Both the position numbers and the translations under genes were made by a program. DNA of 64,000 nucleotides from Pseudoclavibacter caeni (GTDB lineage: Bacteria > Actinomycetota > Actinomycetes > Actinomycetales > Microbacteriaceae), in the NCBI RefSeq assembly GCF_008831125.1, contig NZ_WBKA01000001.1:62001-126000 (forward strand). Direction: 5' to 3'. Under the pieces are notes generated by a model. It did not search any database. It was not told the DNA's origin and saw only the letters and a program-made list of their open reading frames with translations. The stretch's first letter is position 1; each line of letters opens with the position of its first letter. Positions 27,871-34,553 of this stretch are shown piece by piece.

Positions 27871-29001
27871 TCAGCCCTCGAAGCCGGGCACGTGGCGCTC
27901 GTCGACGCCGTTGTACAGCGACAGCGGCCGGATGAGCGCGTTGTTCGCGCGCTGCTCGATGATGTGCGCCGTCCAGCCCGTCACGCGAGCGGCGACGAAG
28001 ATGGGCGTGAACGTCGGGATGTCGAAGCCGAGCAGGTAGTACGCCGGCCCAGCCGGGTAGTCCAGGTTCGGCTTGATGCCCTTCGCCTCGTCCATCTCCT
28101 TCGCGAGCGCCTCGTACAGACGCTTGATCTCGGGACGGTCGTAGCGCTCGATGAGCTCGTAGGTCGCCTTCTGCATCGTCGGGACGCGCGAGTCGCCCTT
28201 CTTGTACACGCGGTGACCGAAGCCCATGATCTTCTTCTTCTCGGCGAACGCGGCCTGCAGCCAGTCATACGCCTTCTGCTCGACGTCGCCGTCGTAGCCG
28301 ATCTCCTCGAACTCGTGCAGCACCGCCTCGTTCGCGCCACCGTGCAGCGGGCCCTTGAGAGCGCCGATCGCACCGGTGACCGCCGAGTACAGGTCGCTCA
28401 GCGTCGAGGTGATCACCCGCGCGGTGAACGTCGACGCGTTGAACGAGTGCTCCGCGTAGAGGATGAGCGACACGCGGAACGCGTCGACCTCGAAGTCGTC
28501 GGGCTTGCGACCGAAGGTCTGCCACAGGAAGTTCGCCGAATAGTCGAGCTCCGGATCCGGGGTCACGAACTCCTCGCCACGGCGACGGCGCTGGTCGTAT
28601 GCGACGATCGACGGAAGCTTGGCGAACAGGTTGATCGCCTTCTCCAGCTCGGCCTCGGGCGACTCGTCCGCGGTCTTCGGGTCGTTCGCGCCGATCACGC
28701 TGACGGCGGTGCGCACCACGTCCATCGGGTGGCAGTCGGTCGGCAGCGAGTCGATGACGGCCTTGACGTTGGCGTCGAGGCCGCGCAGCGAGCGCTCGGT
28801 CGACTCGAACTCACCGAGCTGCTCCTCGGTGGGCAGCTCGCCGTGCCACAGCAGATAGGCGACCGACTCGAACGGCTGCGTCGCCGCGAGCTCCTGCACC
28901 GGGTAGCCCCGGTACAGCAGCGAGTTGGTCTCCGGGTTCACTTTCGAGATGGCGGTGTAGTCGACCGGCACCCCGGCCAGGCCCTTGTAGATCTCGCTCA
29001 T
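27871..29001 (-). CDS. prpC: 2-methylcitrate/citrate synthase
   Basis: This 376-residue citrate-synthase-fold enzyme condenses propionyl-CoA with oxaloacetate. It has catalytic His residues in LKGPLHGGANEAV and IMGFGHRVYKKGDSR, and the Asp-bearing C-terminal region LDYPAGPAYYLLGF. It begins MSEIYKGLAGVPVDYTAISKVN, typical of actinobacterial methylcitrate synthases. Last gene of the minus-strand prpD-prpB-prpC run, 26 bases after prpB, with a GGAGAGACG ribosome site. Sequence alone cannot exclude dual citrate synthase activity, but the operon decides for propionate. Confidence 0.93.
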   Translation of the reverse strand: MSEIYKGLAGVPVDYTAISKVNPETNSLLYRGYPVQELAATQPFESVAYLLWHGELPTEEQLGEFESTERSLRGLDANVKAVIDSLPTDCHPMDVVRTAVSVIGANDPKTADESPEAELEKAINLFAKLPSIVAYDQRRRRGEEFVTPDPELDYSANFLWQTFGRKPDDFEVDAFRVSLILYAEHSFNASTFTARVITSTLSDLYSAVTGAIGALKGPLHGGANEAVLHEFEEIGYDGDVEQKAYDWLQAAFAEKKKIMGFGHRVYKKGDSRVPTMQKATYELIERYDRPEIKRLYEALAKEMDEAKGIKPNLDYPAGPAYYLLGFDIPTFTPIFVAARVTGWTAHIIEQRANNALIRPLSLYNGVDERHVPGFEG

Positions 29002-29027
29002 TGGCGTCTCTCCTTCGAATGCTGGAA

Positions 29028-29939
29028 TCAGTGGTAGTTGTCGCGCTCGACGTCGAAGTTGAACACCGACGTGTCGAACTCGTTGTAGGCGGCGTAGTCG
29101 ACGAGGTCGTACAGATCCGCGCGGGTCTGCATGCTCTCGACCTGCGAGCGCAGGCTGCCCTCGGCGATGATCGTGTCGAGCCCGCGCTCGGCGGCGCCCA
29201 GAGCGAGCCGCTGCAGCGACACCGGGTAGATCACCAGGTTGAACCCGAGATCCTCCAGCTGCTGGTTGGTGAACAGCTCGCTCTTGCCGAACTCGGTCAT
29301 GTTCGCCAGCAGCGGGGCGTCGACGGCCTTGCGGAAGGCCTCGAACTCGCCCAGGTCGCGCAGCGCCTCTGGGAAGATGCCGTCGGCGCCGGCGTCGATG
29401 AGTGCCTTGGCCCGGTCGATCGCCGCCTGCAGCCCCTCGGAGCCGCGGATGTCGGTGCGGGCGAGGATGACGAGGTTGTCGTCCCGGCGCGCGTCGACGG
29501 CCGCCTTGATGCGGTTGACCGCGGTGGCCTGGTCGACGACCTGCTTGCCGTCGAGGTGGCCGCAGCGCTTCGGGTTGACCTGATCCTCGATGTGGATGCC
29601 GGCCACGCCGGCGTCCTCGAGCTCCTGCACGGTGCGTGCGACGTTCATCGCCTCGCCGAAGCCGGTGTCGGCGTCGACGAGCACGGGCAGGTCGGTGGCC
29701 CGCGCGTAGGTGTGCACGCGACCGGCCACCTCTGTGAGCGTGGTCAGTCCGATGTCAGGCAGCCCCAGGTCGTTGGCGAGCACGCCGCCGGAGGCGTAGA
29801 CGCCTTCGAAGCCCTTCTTCTGGATGAGCTTCGCGCTCAGGGCGTTGAACGCGCCGGGGAAGCGCAGCAGCCGGCCGCTGGTCAGCCCCTCGCGGAAGGC
29901 GCGGCGTTTGGCCTCGGGTGTGGTCTTGGAGTACAGCAT
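29028..29939 (-). CDS. prpB: 2-methylisocitrate lyase
   Basis: This 303-residue isocitrate-lyase-superfamily enzyme cleaves 2-methylisocitrate to pyruvate and succinate, the last step of the methylcitrate cycle. The catalytic Cys126 is in NPKRCGHLDGK, the Mg-binding region is VLVDADTGFG, and the family segment GADGIFPEAL is present. Normal length. Its ATG overlaps the prpD stop by one base (TGATG). Confidence 0.95.
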   Translation of the reverse strand: MLYSKTTPEAKRRAFREGLTSGRLLRFPGAFNALSAKLIQKKGFEGVYASGGVLANDLGLPDIGLTTLTEVAGRVHTYARATDLPVLVDADTGFGEAMNVARTVQELEDAGVAGIHIEDQVNPKRCGHLDGKQVVDQATAVNRIKAAVDARRDDNLVILARTDIRGSEGLQAAIDRAKALIDAGADGIFPEALRDLGEFEAFRKAVDAPLLANMTEFGKSELFTNQQLEDLGFNLVIYPVSLQRLALGAAERGLDTIIAEGSLRSQVESMQTRADLYDLVDYAAYNEFDTSVFNFDVERDNYH

Positions 29940-31477
29940 CAGAAGATTCCCTTCGGATCGGCGACACTCTCGAGCAGGCCGGGCTTCGCCACGATGGTGA
30001 GCTGCCCGAGCTCCTCGGGTTTCAGCGTGTCGAGACGCTGGGCGACGTCGAGGAACCGCTCAATCTCCTCGGCCTCGAGCACCGGCTCGGCGAGCGTCTT
30101 GAACTTGGCGATGTAGTTCGCGCGGGCGAACGGGCGGGCGCCCAGCGGGTGAGCGTCGGCGACGGCGATCTCCGCGGAGATGTGCGAGCCGTCCGTCAGC
30201 TCGATCTCGGCGCGACCGCCGAACGCCTTCTCCTTCGGGTCGAGCGAATGGTAGCGGCGGGTCCACTCGGGATCCTCCGTGGTGGTGATCTTGTGCCATA
30301 GCTCGACGGTGTCGGGCCGGCCCGCGCGCTCCGGCGTGTAGGAAGCGACGTGATCCCAGCCACCATCCTGCAGGGCGACGGCGAAGATGTACGGCACCGA
30401 GTGGTCCAGCGTCTCGCGCGTCGCCGTCGGATCGTACTTCTGCGGGTCGTTCGCGCCCGAGCCGATCACGACGTGCGTGTGGTTCGAGGTGTGCAGCACG
30501 ATCGACTTGACGTTCTTCGGATCGGCCAGCTCCGGGTGCTCGTTGTGCAGCCGGCGCGCCAGATCGATCCACGCCTGCGCCTGGTACTCTGCCGAGTGCT
30601 CCTTGGTGTAGGTGTCGAGGATGCCCCGCTTCGCCTCGCCGGGCTCGGGCAGCGGCACCGAGTAGTGCGCGTCAGGGCCGTCGAGCAGCCACGCGATCAC
30701 GCCATCCTCGCCCTCCCAGATCGGCTCCGGGCTCGTCTGGCCGCGCATCGCGCGGTCGACGGCCTCGACCGCCTGCTTGCCGGCGAACGCCGGGGCGTGC
30801 GACTTCCAGGTCGAGATCTGCCCCTTGCGAGACTGGCGCGTCTGGGTGGTGGTGTGCAGCGCCTGACCGATCGCCTGGAAGATGACCTCCGGGTCGAGGT
30901 GCAGCAGCGTGCCGAGCCCGGCCGCGATCGACGGGCCGAGGTGCGCGATGTGGTCGATCTTGTGCGAGTGCAGGTCGATGGCCTTGGTCAGGTCGACCTG
31001 AATCTCATAGCCGGTGGCGATGCCGCGCACGACGTCGTGCCCGGTGACCGGCTGGGATCCGCGGCCCGACATGTGCTGCGCCACGGCGATCATCGCCGGG
31101 ATGTTGTCGCCGGGGTGCGAGTACTCGGCGGCGAGGAACGTGTCGTGGTAGTCGAGCTCACGCACGGCCACGCCGTTGGCCCAGGTGGCCCACTCCGGCG
31201 AGAAGCGCTGCGGCACGGGCAGGCCGAAGACGGTCGAGCCGCCGCCATCGGTGATCGGATGCGCCTTCGCCTGCGAGCGCGCGGCGATGATCGGACCGCG
31301 CATGAGCGACGCGGCGGCGACCGAGGCGTTGTCGATGACCCGGTTGATGACCTGGTCGGTGACCTCCGGGGTCACCTCGACGGGGTCTGCGGCGACCTCG
31401 GCAATCTTCCAGGCCAGCTGCTGCGTGCGAGGCAGGTTCTCCTCGCTGCGGTACACACGGACGTCATGCTGTTTCAC
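29939..31477 (-). CDS. prpD: 2-methylcitrate dehydratase
   Basis: This MmgE/PrpD-family enzyme, about 512 residues, dehydrates 2-methylcitrate. Recognisable segments are [58 protein letters not shown] and the C-terminal [18 protein letters not shown]. The GTG at 31477 is preferred because AAGGAG lies 6 bases before it. ATGs at 31483 and 31492 are also in frame; the latter overlaps the GntR gene further and has no good ribosome site. It overlaps the 3' end of gntR and is coupled to prpB. Confidence 0.93.
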
Positions 31478-32159
31478 GAGCATCTCCTTCATCTGGGCTG
31501 ACGGCGTCAGCGGTGTGACCCTCGAGGCTGACGGCCTTCGCCAGCCGATGGGACAGACTGTTGTACAGGTGCACGTGCGTGGCGTGCGCGGCGAGCTCGC
31601 CGTTGCCCTCGATGATCGCGTGCACGATGAGCGCGTGCTCGCGCGCGGCGTCGAGCAGCCGCGAGCGATCCGACCGGGCCATGTGGCGGATTCGGGCCAG
31701 ATGCGTGCGCACCGTGCGCATCGCCGCCACCAGGTAGGGGTTGTCGACGGCGTCGTCGATCGCGTCGTCGAACCGGGCGACGAGCGCGTAGTAGTCCCGC
31801 CGGAGTCCGTCGCGGTCGTCGAGCAGCCCGCTGACGTCGTCGAACGCCGCCTCGAGGGTCTCGAACACCTCGGGATCCCGGTTGCGCGCGGCCAGTCGGG
31901 CGGCCTGGCACTCCAGCGCGACGCGGACGTCGTACAGCTCGCGGATGTTGTCGAGCGAGACCTCGGTGACCTCGACGCCGCGCTCGCGGCGGACGGCCAG
32001 CCCCTCGCCGATCAGCCGGCGGATGGCCTCTCTGACCGGGGTGCGGGACACCCCGAGACGGGTGGCCTGCTCGACCTCGCCGAGCACCGTGCCCGCCGGC
32101 AGATCTCCGTTGGTGATCTCCTCCCGAAGGGTCACATAGGCCCGGTCTCCGGCGCGCAT
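31464..32159 (-). CDS. GntR-family (FadR/FCD) regulator of the prp genes
   Basis: This 231-residue regulator has an N-terminal winged helix (residues about 5-70, [24 protein letters not shown]) and a C-terminal FCD ligand-binding domain ([42 protein letters not shown]) whose His/Asp residues often bind a metal or organic acid. GAGGGGAG precedes the ATG. It is first in the gntR-prpDBC operon and divergent from prpE. Three near-identical palindromes in the intergenic DNA are its likely operators, making it a local sensor of a methylcitrate-cycle metabolite (inferred). Confidence 0.9.
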
Positions 32160-32198
32160 GCGCTCCCCTCTCGGTCGGCGGTGATCGATTGCGCCTTC

Positions 32199-32231
32199 AG
32201 TGTATACACAAACGTCGTCCGATGTATACAT
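32199..32231. promoter_or_regulatory. Two palindromic GntR operators at the gntR promoter
   Basis: GTGTATACAC (32200-32209) and ATGTATACAT (32222-32231) share the core TGTATACA and are spaced 22 bp centre to centre, about two helical turns. On the minus strand TACACT (32204-32199) is a candidate -10 of gntR, so operator 1 covers the -10 and operator 2 lies at about the -35. Confidence 0.75.
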
Positions 32232-32424
32232 CACCGACACACTCGTCGGAGAAGCGCCTCTCGACGCCCCGACGCGTCCTCCAGCCGGTGCGACACGCCG
32301 AGAGGACCGCCCCGACACGCCGTGGCTGACGGTTCGATGCCCTCTCCTCACCCCCGACGACCCCGATCCCCCGCCACAGGCGAACTGGAGACGGTCGATC
32401 CGCGAACCCCGCGCGCCGTCAGGG

Positions 32425-32454
32425 TTGCAGCTGTGTATACACCGTCGGTATAGT
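32425..32454 (+). promoter_or_regulatory. prpE: prpE promoter with an operator in the spacer
   Basis: TTGCAG (32425-32430) and TATAGT (32449-32454) are separated by 18 bp. A third perfect copy of GTGTATACAC (32433-32442) sits between them, so a bound GntR dimer would block polymerase. The leader to the prpE ATG is about 78 bases. Confidence 0.75.
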
Positions 32455-32537
32455 GAGTCCCACGCTCCGAGGACGCAGCGCGACAGAGCCGTCGTGTCGT
32501 CATCCTCGCAGTGCAGCACTCAATGAGGAGGCACACG

Positions 32538-34553
32538 ATGAACATCACGCGAGAGCAGGTGCGCGAGGGCGCCTATGGCCGCGCGTACCGACAGAGCATC
32601 GAGGATCCGGAGACCTTCTGGCTCGACGCAGCGAAGGGCATCGACTGGGTGTCCGAGCCCACCCAGGCCCTGGACTCGTCCAACGCACCCGAATACCAGT
32701 GGTTCCCCAACGGCACACTGAACATGTCGTACAACGCGCTGGACCGGCACATCGAGGCCGGCCGGGGCGACCGCCAGGCCCTCATCTATGAATCCGCGGT
32801 GACGAACAAATCGCGTGTGTACACGTTCAACGAGCTGCGTGACGAGGTCGCCCGCTTCGCCGGTGTGCTCGCCTCCCACGGCGTCGGCCTGGGCGACCGG
32901 GTCGTCATCTACATGCCGATGATCCCCGAGGCACTCATCGCATCCCTCGCCTGCGCCCGACTCGGCGCCGTGCACTCCGTGGTGTTCGGCGGGTTCGCCG
33001 CCAAGGAGCTCGCGTCACGCATCAACGACGCGAAACCGAAGGTCATCGTCACCGCCGACGGCGGCATCGAGCCCAACCGCATCGTCGAGTACCTGCCCAT
33101 CGTCGCCGAGGCGCTCGCCCTCTCCGACGCGTTCGTCGACGCCGTCATCGTCAAAGACCGCCCCGAGATCCCCGGCGGTGCGAAGGACGGCACTGAGTGG
33201 GTCGCCGACATCGTCGACGTCGACTGGTACGACTGGGATCAGGAGATGACCCAGGCCGCGCCGCACGATCCCGTCCCCGTCGTCGCGACGCATCCGCTGT
33301 ACATCCTGTACACCTCGGGCACCACCGGCGCTCCGAAGGGCGTCGTGCGCGACACCGGCGGCTATGCGGTCGCGCTGTCGTGGTCGATGAGGAACCTGTA
33401 CAACATCGAGGCCGGCCAGGTCATGTGGACGGCCTCCGACGTCGGCTGGGTCGTCGGCCACAGCTACATCATCTACGGCCCGCTCATCGCCGGCGCCGCC
33501 ACCCTCGTCTACGAGGGCAAGCCCGTGGGCACCCCGGACGCCGCCCAGTTCTGGCGCATCATCGAGAAGTACAAGGTGCGCTCGTTCTTCACCGCGCCGA
33601 CCGCCATCCGCGCCGTCCGCAAGGAGGACCCGCAGGGCGAGCTGATCAAGAAGTTCGACATCTCGTCGCTGCAGGCGCTGTTCCTGGCCGGCGAGCGCAC
33701 GGATCCGGACACGTACCACTGGGCCGTGGCCAACGTCCACCCGAAGGTCGTCGACCACTGGTGGCAGACGGAGACCGGCTGGGCGATCACCGGCAACTTC
33801 ATCGGCCTGCAGTCAGTCGAGTCGCGCGCCGGCTCGGGCGGCCTGCCCACCCCGGGATTCAACGTGCAGATCCTCGACGATGAGGGCAACCCCGTGCCGA
33901 CGCTCGGCGAGGGCAACATCGTCATCAAGCAGCCGATGCCGCCGGGCACGCTCACCACACTGTGGCGGAAGCACAAGCGCTACTTCCGCTGCTATCTCAA
34001 GCCGTTCCCCGGCTACTACCTCACCGGCGACTCGGGCTACATCGACCGTGAGGGCTACGTCTATGTAATGGGCCGCACGGACGACGTCATCAACGTCGCC
34101 GGCCACCGGCTGAGCACCGGACAGATGGAAGGCATCCTGGCCGCTCACCAGGCCGTCGCCGAGGCCGCCGTCATCGGCGCGGCCGACGCCCTCAAGGGCG
34201 AGAAGCCGTTCGGGTTCGTCGTGCTCAAGCACGGCGTGGACACCCCGGAGCCAGTGCTGCGCAAGGAACTCATCCAGAAGGTGCGCGGGGAGCTCGGCGC
34301 GGTCGCGTCGTTCAAGGACGTCGTGGTCGTGCACGGCCTGCCCAAGACCCGCTCCGGCAAGATCCTGCGCAAGAACCTGCGCCAGCTGGTCAACGGCGAG
34401 AAACTCATCGTTCCGCCCACGATCGAGGACACCGCGGTGCTCACCCAGGTGCAGATCGCGGTGCACACCTACCTGCGCGAGAAGGAGGAGGCCCAGCAGG
34501 CCAGGGCTCAGGCCGCGGCCGCGGAGCCCGCTCAAGAGGCCAGTCCGGCCTGA
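32538..34553 (+). CDS. prpE: Propionyl-CoA synthetase
   Basis: This 671-residue AMP-forming acyl-CoA synthetase activates propionate to propionyl-CoA. Motifs: A3 YTSGTTGAPKGVV, A5 WWQTETGWAI (PrpE-like, where acetyl-CoA synthetases usually read TETGG), A7 YLTGDSGYIDREGYVYVMGRTDDVINVAGHRL, and the acetylation-regulated Lys608 in RSGKILRK. The ATG at 32538 has AGGAGG 8 bases upstream. Divergent from gntR-prpDBC under shared operators, so propionate activation and breakdown are switched together. The Ala/Glu-rich tail is extra to the family core. Confidence 0.94.
   Translation: MNITREQVREGAYGRAYRQSIEDPETFWLDAAKGIDWVSEPTQALDSSNAPEYQWFPNGTLNMSYNALDRHIEAGRGDRQALIYESAVTNKSRVYTFNELRDEVARFAGVLASHGVGLGDRVVIYMPMIPEALIASLACARLGAVHSVVFGGFAAKELASRINDAKPKVIVTADGGIEPNRIVEYLPIVAEALALSDAFVDAVIVKDRPEIPGGAKDGTEWVADIVDVDWYDWDQEMTQAAPHDPVPVVATHPLYILYTSGTTGAPKGVVRDTGGYAVALSWSMRNLYNIEAGQVMWTASDVGWVVGHSYIIYGPLIAGAATLVYEGKPVGTPDAAQFWRIIEKYKVRSFFTAPTAIRAVRKEDPQGELIKKFDISSLQALFLAGERTDPDTYHWAVANVHPKVVDHWWQTETGWAITGNFIGLQSVESRAGSGGLPTPGFNVQILDDEGNPVPTLGEGNIVIKQPMPPGTLTTLWRKHKRYFRCYLKPFPGYYLTGDSGYIDREGYVYVMGRTDDVINVAGHRLSTGQMEGILAAHQAVAEAAVIGAADALKGEKPFGFVVLKHGVDTPEPVLRKELIQKVRGELGAVASFKDVVVVHGLPKTRSGKILRKNLRQLVNGEKLIVPPTIEDTAVLTQVQIAVHTYLREKEEAQQARAQAAAAEPAQEASPA

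Follow-up and report, generated by a model that had tools for sequence, protein, structure and literature searches.

Helically phased operator pairs with a rotational A/T pattern accompany a predicted VanR-group regulator of methylcitrate genes in Actinobacteria

In Pseudoclavibacter caeni, the control region between gntR-prpDBC and a divergent prpE-like gene carries palindromic sites whose counterparts in relatives form pairs set five, six or seven helical turns apart, with spacer DNA that alternates between A/T and G/C in step with the helix. The three sites found in the window (the whole 64,000-nucleotide stretch analysed here) are real, conserved and almost certainly functional operators and, judging from their sequence and setting, they very probably serve the neighbouring repressor of propionate (methylcitrate) genes. 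The explanation that best accounts for the whole, in which we have considerable confidence, is that these are VanR-group operators which would be bridged by a tetramer with the promoter DNA bent between them, and that the window's genus would use an expanded form of this arrangement. A more specific proposal, which we find probable but hold with clearly less assurance, is a nucleosome-like microloop, with selected spacing of 5-7 turns and a bending code running through the whole spacer, in at least nine actinobacterial families. The motif is known, but its conserved phasing and the bending code are undescribed as far as searches of the open-licence literature show, and the initial annotation of this DNA had overlooked both of these informative features.

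The genes concerned form a minus-strand block (27871-32159) that faces away from the prpE-like gene. The regulator gene gntR (31464-32159, minus strand) encodes a 231 aa predicted VanR-group FCD GntR protein, with an N-terminal winged helix (PF00392, 3.3e-13) and an FCD domain (PF07729, 4.3e-23), both above their cut-offs. On the same strand lie prpD (29939-31492), a predicted 2-methylcitrate dehydratase of the high-GC Gram-positive type (NF042438, with a score of 840 bits that is below the curated cut-off of 950), prpB (29028-29939), a predicted methylisocitrate lyase (TIGR02317, above cut-off), and prpC (27871-29001), a predicted 2-methylcitrate/citrate synthase (NF010636, above cut-off). 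The divergent gene (32538-34553, plus strand) encodes an acyl-CoA synthetase that matches PRK10524 at 1.1e-211 but below cut-off, and PRK00174 above cut-off; it falls under both propionate-ligase cut-offs and just above the acetate-ligase subfamily cut-off. 'prpE' is thus a name by neighbourhood, and the predicted ligase could be specific for either propionate or acetate.

Between these two arms, as initially claimed, there are three near-identical operators, that is, 10 bp palindromes with the core TGTATACA that are listed here without strand. Operator 1, proximal to gntR (GTGTATACAC, 32200-32209), has its core 49 bp from the gntR start codon, operator 2 (ATGTATACAT, 32222-32231) follows 22 bp away, start to start, as had been noted, and operator 3 (GTGTATACAC again, 32433-32442) lies a further 211 bp on, start to start, which corresponds to 20.1 turns. 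Operators 1 and 2 are both conserved upstream of gntR orthologues. A chance origin can be rejected, with 100 dinucleotide shuffles of the window giving a mean of 0.02 copies and at most one, compared to the three real ones. So can the existence of many unrelated copies: a genome-wide search for such palindromes, which the initial annotation had suggested as a check, covered 2,059,739 bases (2.06 Mb in 11 contigs, with a completeness rating of 100%) and found TGTATACA only three times, always at the prp locus, while the reversed control pattern occurred twice. A one-mismatch site, GTGTGTACAC, is seen at 32815-32824 within the prpE coding region, ~380 bp past operator 3.

One of the copies was said to sit in the prpE promoter spacer, and this fits a predicted plus-strand promoter read from the sequence (TTGCAG-18-TATAGT, 32425-32454), whose boxes at 32425-32430 and 32449-32454 enclose operator 3 in their 18 bp spacer. 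Direct reading of a related locus (L010) reveals a similar layout, TTGCAT-18-TATATT, again with the operator inside the spacer. The placement of another copy on the gntR -10 fared less well: the candidate box at that operator, TATACA, is plausible, but it has no convincing -35 alongside, and a stricter consensus promoter scan of 32100-32600 returned no promoter, not even the prpE candidate. Among relatives, the same kind of scan matched a promoter in the gntR direction in only 14 of 43 and 18 of 83 loci, and promoter assignment inside the interval between operators is clear in some lineages only.

Conservation ties the sites to the regulator. Of 398 family genomes, 189 contain a relative of GntR (E up to 1e-30), and 150 of these matches were examined as loci, leaving out the 39 weaker-scoring ones. 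In 148 of the 150, prpD is directly downstream of gntR on the same strand, while a divergent PrpE is found within 400 bp in 31. An exact TGTATACA is present within 400 bp upstream of gntR in 127 of these loci, at least two exact copies in 84, and at least two sites with one mismatch allowed in 131. The sites therefore track gntR-prpD rather than prpE alone, which is what one would expect of operators for the gntR-encoded regulator. The paired pattern TGTATACA-N38-68-TGTATACA was found in 83 of 398 genomes and its reversed control in 2 of 398. A large TGTATACA regulon seems unlikely, because, across 60 sampled family genomes, the motif and its reversed control have total counts of the same order.

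The spacing of the paired sites is quantised. All 79 exact pairs that are 40-80 bp apart fall within 1.5 bp of a multiple of 10.5 bp, at 5, 6 or 7 turns (52-53 bp, n = 21; 62-64 bp, n = 57; 73 bp, n = 1), as do 128 of 129 pairs when one mismatch is allowed; uniform spacing would place ~3 in 10 pairs within these limits. Shared descent does not explain this, because more than one spacing class occurs within each of nine genera and the class switches about 15 times on a GntR+PrpD tree (an approximate number, since this is a quick FastTree), compared to an average of 37 for shuffled labels; with exact pairs only, there are 7 switches. When prpE is divergent, 27 of the 28 classed loci belong to the 6-turn class. 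Twenty-three family loci have no pair at 5-7 turns; in 15 of them a partner with two mismatches is located at exactly 52, 53 or 62 bp, and the other eight comprise three of the window's genus, one whose partner is 86 bp away and four that lack a clear partner.

The spacers carry a second signal that is locked to the operators. Genus-weighted A/T content swings from ~0.1-0.2 to 0.7-0.9 with a period of 10.2-10.5 bp in both the 5-turn class (43 loci from 20 genera) and the 6-turn class (83 loci from 23 genera), with maxima half a turn off the operator dyad (phase 0.48-0.49 turn) and G/C in step with it. The amplitudes, 0.236 and 0.233, were matched by none of 2000 genus-wise circular shifts, and all 126 loci and all 35 genera have their phase in one half of the circle. 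The signal is carried most strongly by AAA/TTT and AAT/ATT, which sit at half turns, and by GCC/GGC, which sit at whole turns, an arrangement of the kind described for nucleosome DNA. The spacer sequences themselves vary widely among genera. Even the 22 loci lacking a 5- or 6-turn partner within one mismatch are patterned (amplitude 0.161), which agrees with the presence of degenerate two-mismatch partners. That these genomes simply have a 10 bp periodicity throughout is rejected by random segments, whose amplitude is at most 0.057 in 300 draws, and by the flanks, since there is no A/T periodicity far upstream of the operators. Just outside them, the 5-turn class has no signal and the 6-turn class has a weak one of the same phase (0.065-0.070 within 36 bp), so that in the latter the pattern is not strictly confined to the spacer.

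Both features recur in a held-out set made of all 53 order-level matches outside the family (15 in-family matches were excluded). In these loci, from eight other families, a pair is present in 44 of 53; it is in phase in 43 of the 44, the exception being 76 bp apart (7.24 turns), and has the predicted A/T phase in all 44. Genus-weighted amplitudes were 0.181 and 0.201, matched by 1 and 0 of 5000 shifts. The remaining nine loci (L172, L198, L200, L201, L203, L208, L210, L211 and L215) belong to one genus of another family whose operators have switched symmetrically to TGCATGCA. In eight of these nine, two sites remain, spaced 52, 53 or 64 bp apart, with a weak A/T pattern that has the predicted phase in seven of the eight and the wrong one in the other, and most have a TTGACG-17 promoter wholly between the operators. 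Their recognition helix reads REAF, compared to REAL or REAI in 23 aligned family members, and the Phe is a possible specificity switch.

What kind of protein could hold such sites is suggested by its fold. A structure model of the window's GntR (pLDDT 84.6) has Atu1419, PmiR and TM0439 as its nearest solved structures in Foldseek, which points to a VanR-group-like fold, and the orthologues of two members of the genus group are 81% identical to it. The genome carries five other FCD matches besides this prp-linked GntR. An ScfR-type PrpR, known from Corynebacterium and Mycobacterium and defined by the PF09856 domain, can be rejected as regulator of the locus: this domain has no match in the whole genome, although it was detected in C. 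glutamicum as a positive control. The initial proposal of a local FCD repressor of propionate use is supported as far as gene content goes, with an FCD GntR that adjoins prpDBC and a divergent acyl-CoA synthetase, and with sites conserved together with gntR-prpD.

Comparison with published systems (PMC9765439, PMC7797058, PMC3795714, PMC8517857, PMC13086498 and PMC4494728) is instructive on two counts. Atu1419 of Agrobacterium fabrum is a tetrameric VanR-group FCD GntR repressor of the same fold group as the window's protein, although the two are only 25-29% identical in structural alignments, and its operator, ATGTATACAT, is identical to operator 2. The motif had been put forward as a precise prediction, but it has already been crystallised with Atu1419; what stands is that no other genomic copies compete for the regulator. 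Each Atu1419 dimer contacts one ATGTATACAT in the major groove close to the dyad, the tetramer has its two operator sites ~10 nm apart, and two operators lie in one intergenic region, one of them inside the promoter of the regulator's own gene, between its -35 and -10; looping was proposed for this pair. The window likewise has operators of the ATGTATACAT type, at least two per regulatory region. However, the proposed Atu1419 loop measures ~190 bp and regulates hydroxycinnamate genes, unlike the 5-7 turn prp spacers, and neither 5-6 turn phasing nor a bendable spacer was found described in the accessible parts.

The functional parallel is the FCD GntR methylcitrate repressor PmiR/PrpR of Pseudomonas aeruginosa, which is encoded with prp genes like the window's GntR and binds upstream of its own gene, at one reported site, ATTGTCGACAAT. 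PmiR, which we take to be PA0797, is structurally close to the GntR model (TM-score 0.74-0.76). The window's GntR would work like PrpR/PmiR, and it shares the prp linkage (148 of 150 loci), but it is not classed as a member because its operator is TGTATACA and not ATTGTCGACAAT. By analogy with the Pseudomonas GntR-type regulator, an acid of the methylcitrate cycle is the probable effector; for that regulator, one cited title names 2-methylisocitrate and another paper infers 2-methylcitrate. The effector site may differ from those of Atu1419 and PmiR in this regulator group, because the first metal-ligand His (His141 of Atu1419, in our own reading) is replaced by an Asp131 that is invariant in 23 of 23 aligned sequences (codon 31767-31769); H197 is also invariant and H175 mostly kept, with all positions mapped by eye.

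These elements can be assembled into a mechanism. The adjacent VanR-group FCD regulator would most likely repress gntR-prpDBC, the operon to which its gene belongs, together with the divergent prpE, and a methylcitrate-cycle intermediate would release it from the operators. In the simplest mechanism, a tetramer made of two dimers, as in Atu1419, would hold both operators on the same DNA face, and the 52-73 bp between them, including the promoter where one is visible, would bend around it into a microloop of 5-7 turns. If binding is Atu1419-like, the major groove at the dyad would face the protein and thus the minor groove would do so at half turns; A/T at half turns and G/C at whole turns are then what we would expect of DNA curving toward the protein. 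For an arc of 52 or 62.5 bp on a 10 nm chord, the calculated radius is 5.1-5.4 nm and the bend 38-40 degrees per turn, which is about that of nucleosome DNA. Lambda, lac and gal loops also have their operators on one helix face and a promoter near or inside the loop, as proposed here, but we know of no rotationally coded spacer in any of them.

The window itself lacks a 5-7 turn pair and would represent an expanded form, with a 22 bp pair at gntR and a distant operator in the prpE promoter, a step away from the microloop. Its 211 bp interval has a weak A/T pattern (amplitude 0.13, phase 0.65, p 0.015, as the best of three pairs). One congener has a 63 bp pair (6.0 turns) and two others combine a 23 bp pair with a third operator 94-95 bp (9.0 turns) away. 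Measured from the middle operator, intervals in the genus are whole turns throughout, which in so few cases is suggestive only. Pairs at 22-23 bp are found in the window and in genus g60, which has a 62-63 bp pair too, and may accommodate two adjacent dimers.

Simpler schemes deserve consideration. Each operator alone could be a roadblock on its own promoter, with repressors that make no contact and form no loop: operator 3 between the prpE -35 and -10 and operators 1-2 near gntR would suffice for occlusion, and Atu1419 binds a single palindrome. We find this improbable, since it predicts neither whole-turn spacing with ~15 class switches nor a rotational pattern in register with the two sites. 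Still less probable is that the spacer is lined by dimers or additional subunits whose minor-groove contacts, not bending, account for the A/T pattern. This would likewise put an A/T patch on one face at every turn, and it could draw on the 22-23 bp pairs of the window and g60 as well as on precedents for multi-contact GntR binding, namely NanR with three dimers on a repeat operator and BusR with a 22 bp ruler without looping. However, AAA/TTT and AAT/ATT set against GCC/GGC is the general bending code and not a repeated motif, and spacer sequences differ widely from genus to genus.

Least credible, to the point of being very unlikely, is a promoter by-product in which the boxes make the A/T peaks and RNA polymerase placement sets the spacing. 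In the TGCATGCA genus, the TTGACG-17 boxes are indeed near two A/T peaks, but masking the presumed -10 and -35 columns leaves amplitudes of 0.20-0.22, matched by 0 of 3000 shifts, so that the boxes are rejected as the sole source of the pattern; the stretch between presumed -35 and -10 alone has amplitudes of 0.21-0.31. Spacing classes of 5, 6 and 7 turns without intermediates are not explained either.

If the microloop is true, DNA mechanics would be an inherited part of repression, and Actinobacteria are predicted to control propionate use through a compact regulator-promoter complex. In the window, 'three similar sites' would become a defined regulon whose partner protein has a solved fold. 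Whether the sequence between looped operators matters has been an open question, which well over 100 natural promoters now seem to answer through whole-turn spacing jumps and a nucleosome-type code, and the relatives offer a collection with which the role of spacer sequence in looping could be examined directly; in a study of lac looping in vitro, nucleosome sequence rules were not followed and the authors asked for tests with other, more rigid looping proteins. As for precedents, searches of the open-licence literature found no report on this VanR-group prp regulator in Actinobacteria and no description of helically phased FCD operators. In 29 FadR-type divergons, a near-constant distance between two sites was read as cooperative (Suvorova, Korostelev, Gelfand 2015), and a search of that text gave no relevant passage on helical phase or periodicity.

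The motif also occurs at a second place in three genomes of genus g80 (L227-L229, ~2500-2555), with two TGTATACA 47 bp apart (4.5 turns) and a TGTACA-type site between them, which was left out of the phasing analysis as a different regulon. This pair adjoins another FCD GntR-like regulator and, by eye, apparent TRAP-transporter genes, and is probably a separate regulon that uses the same motif.
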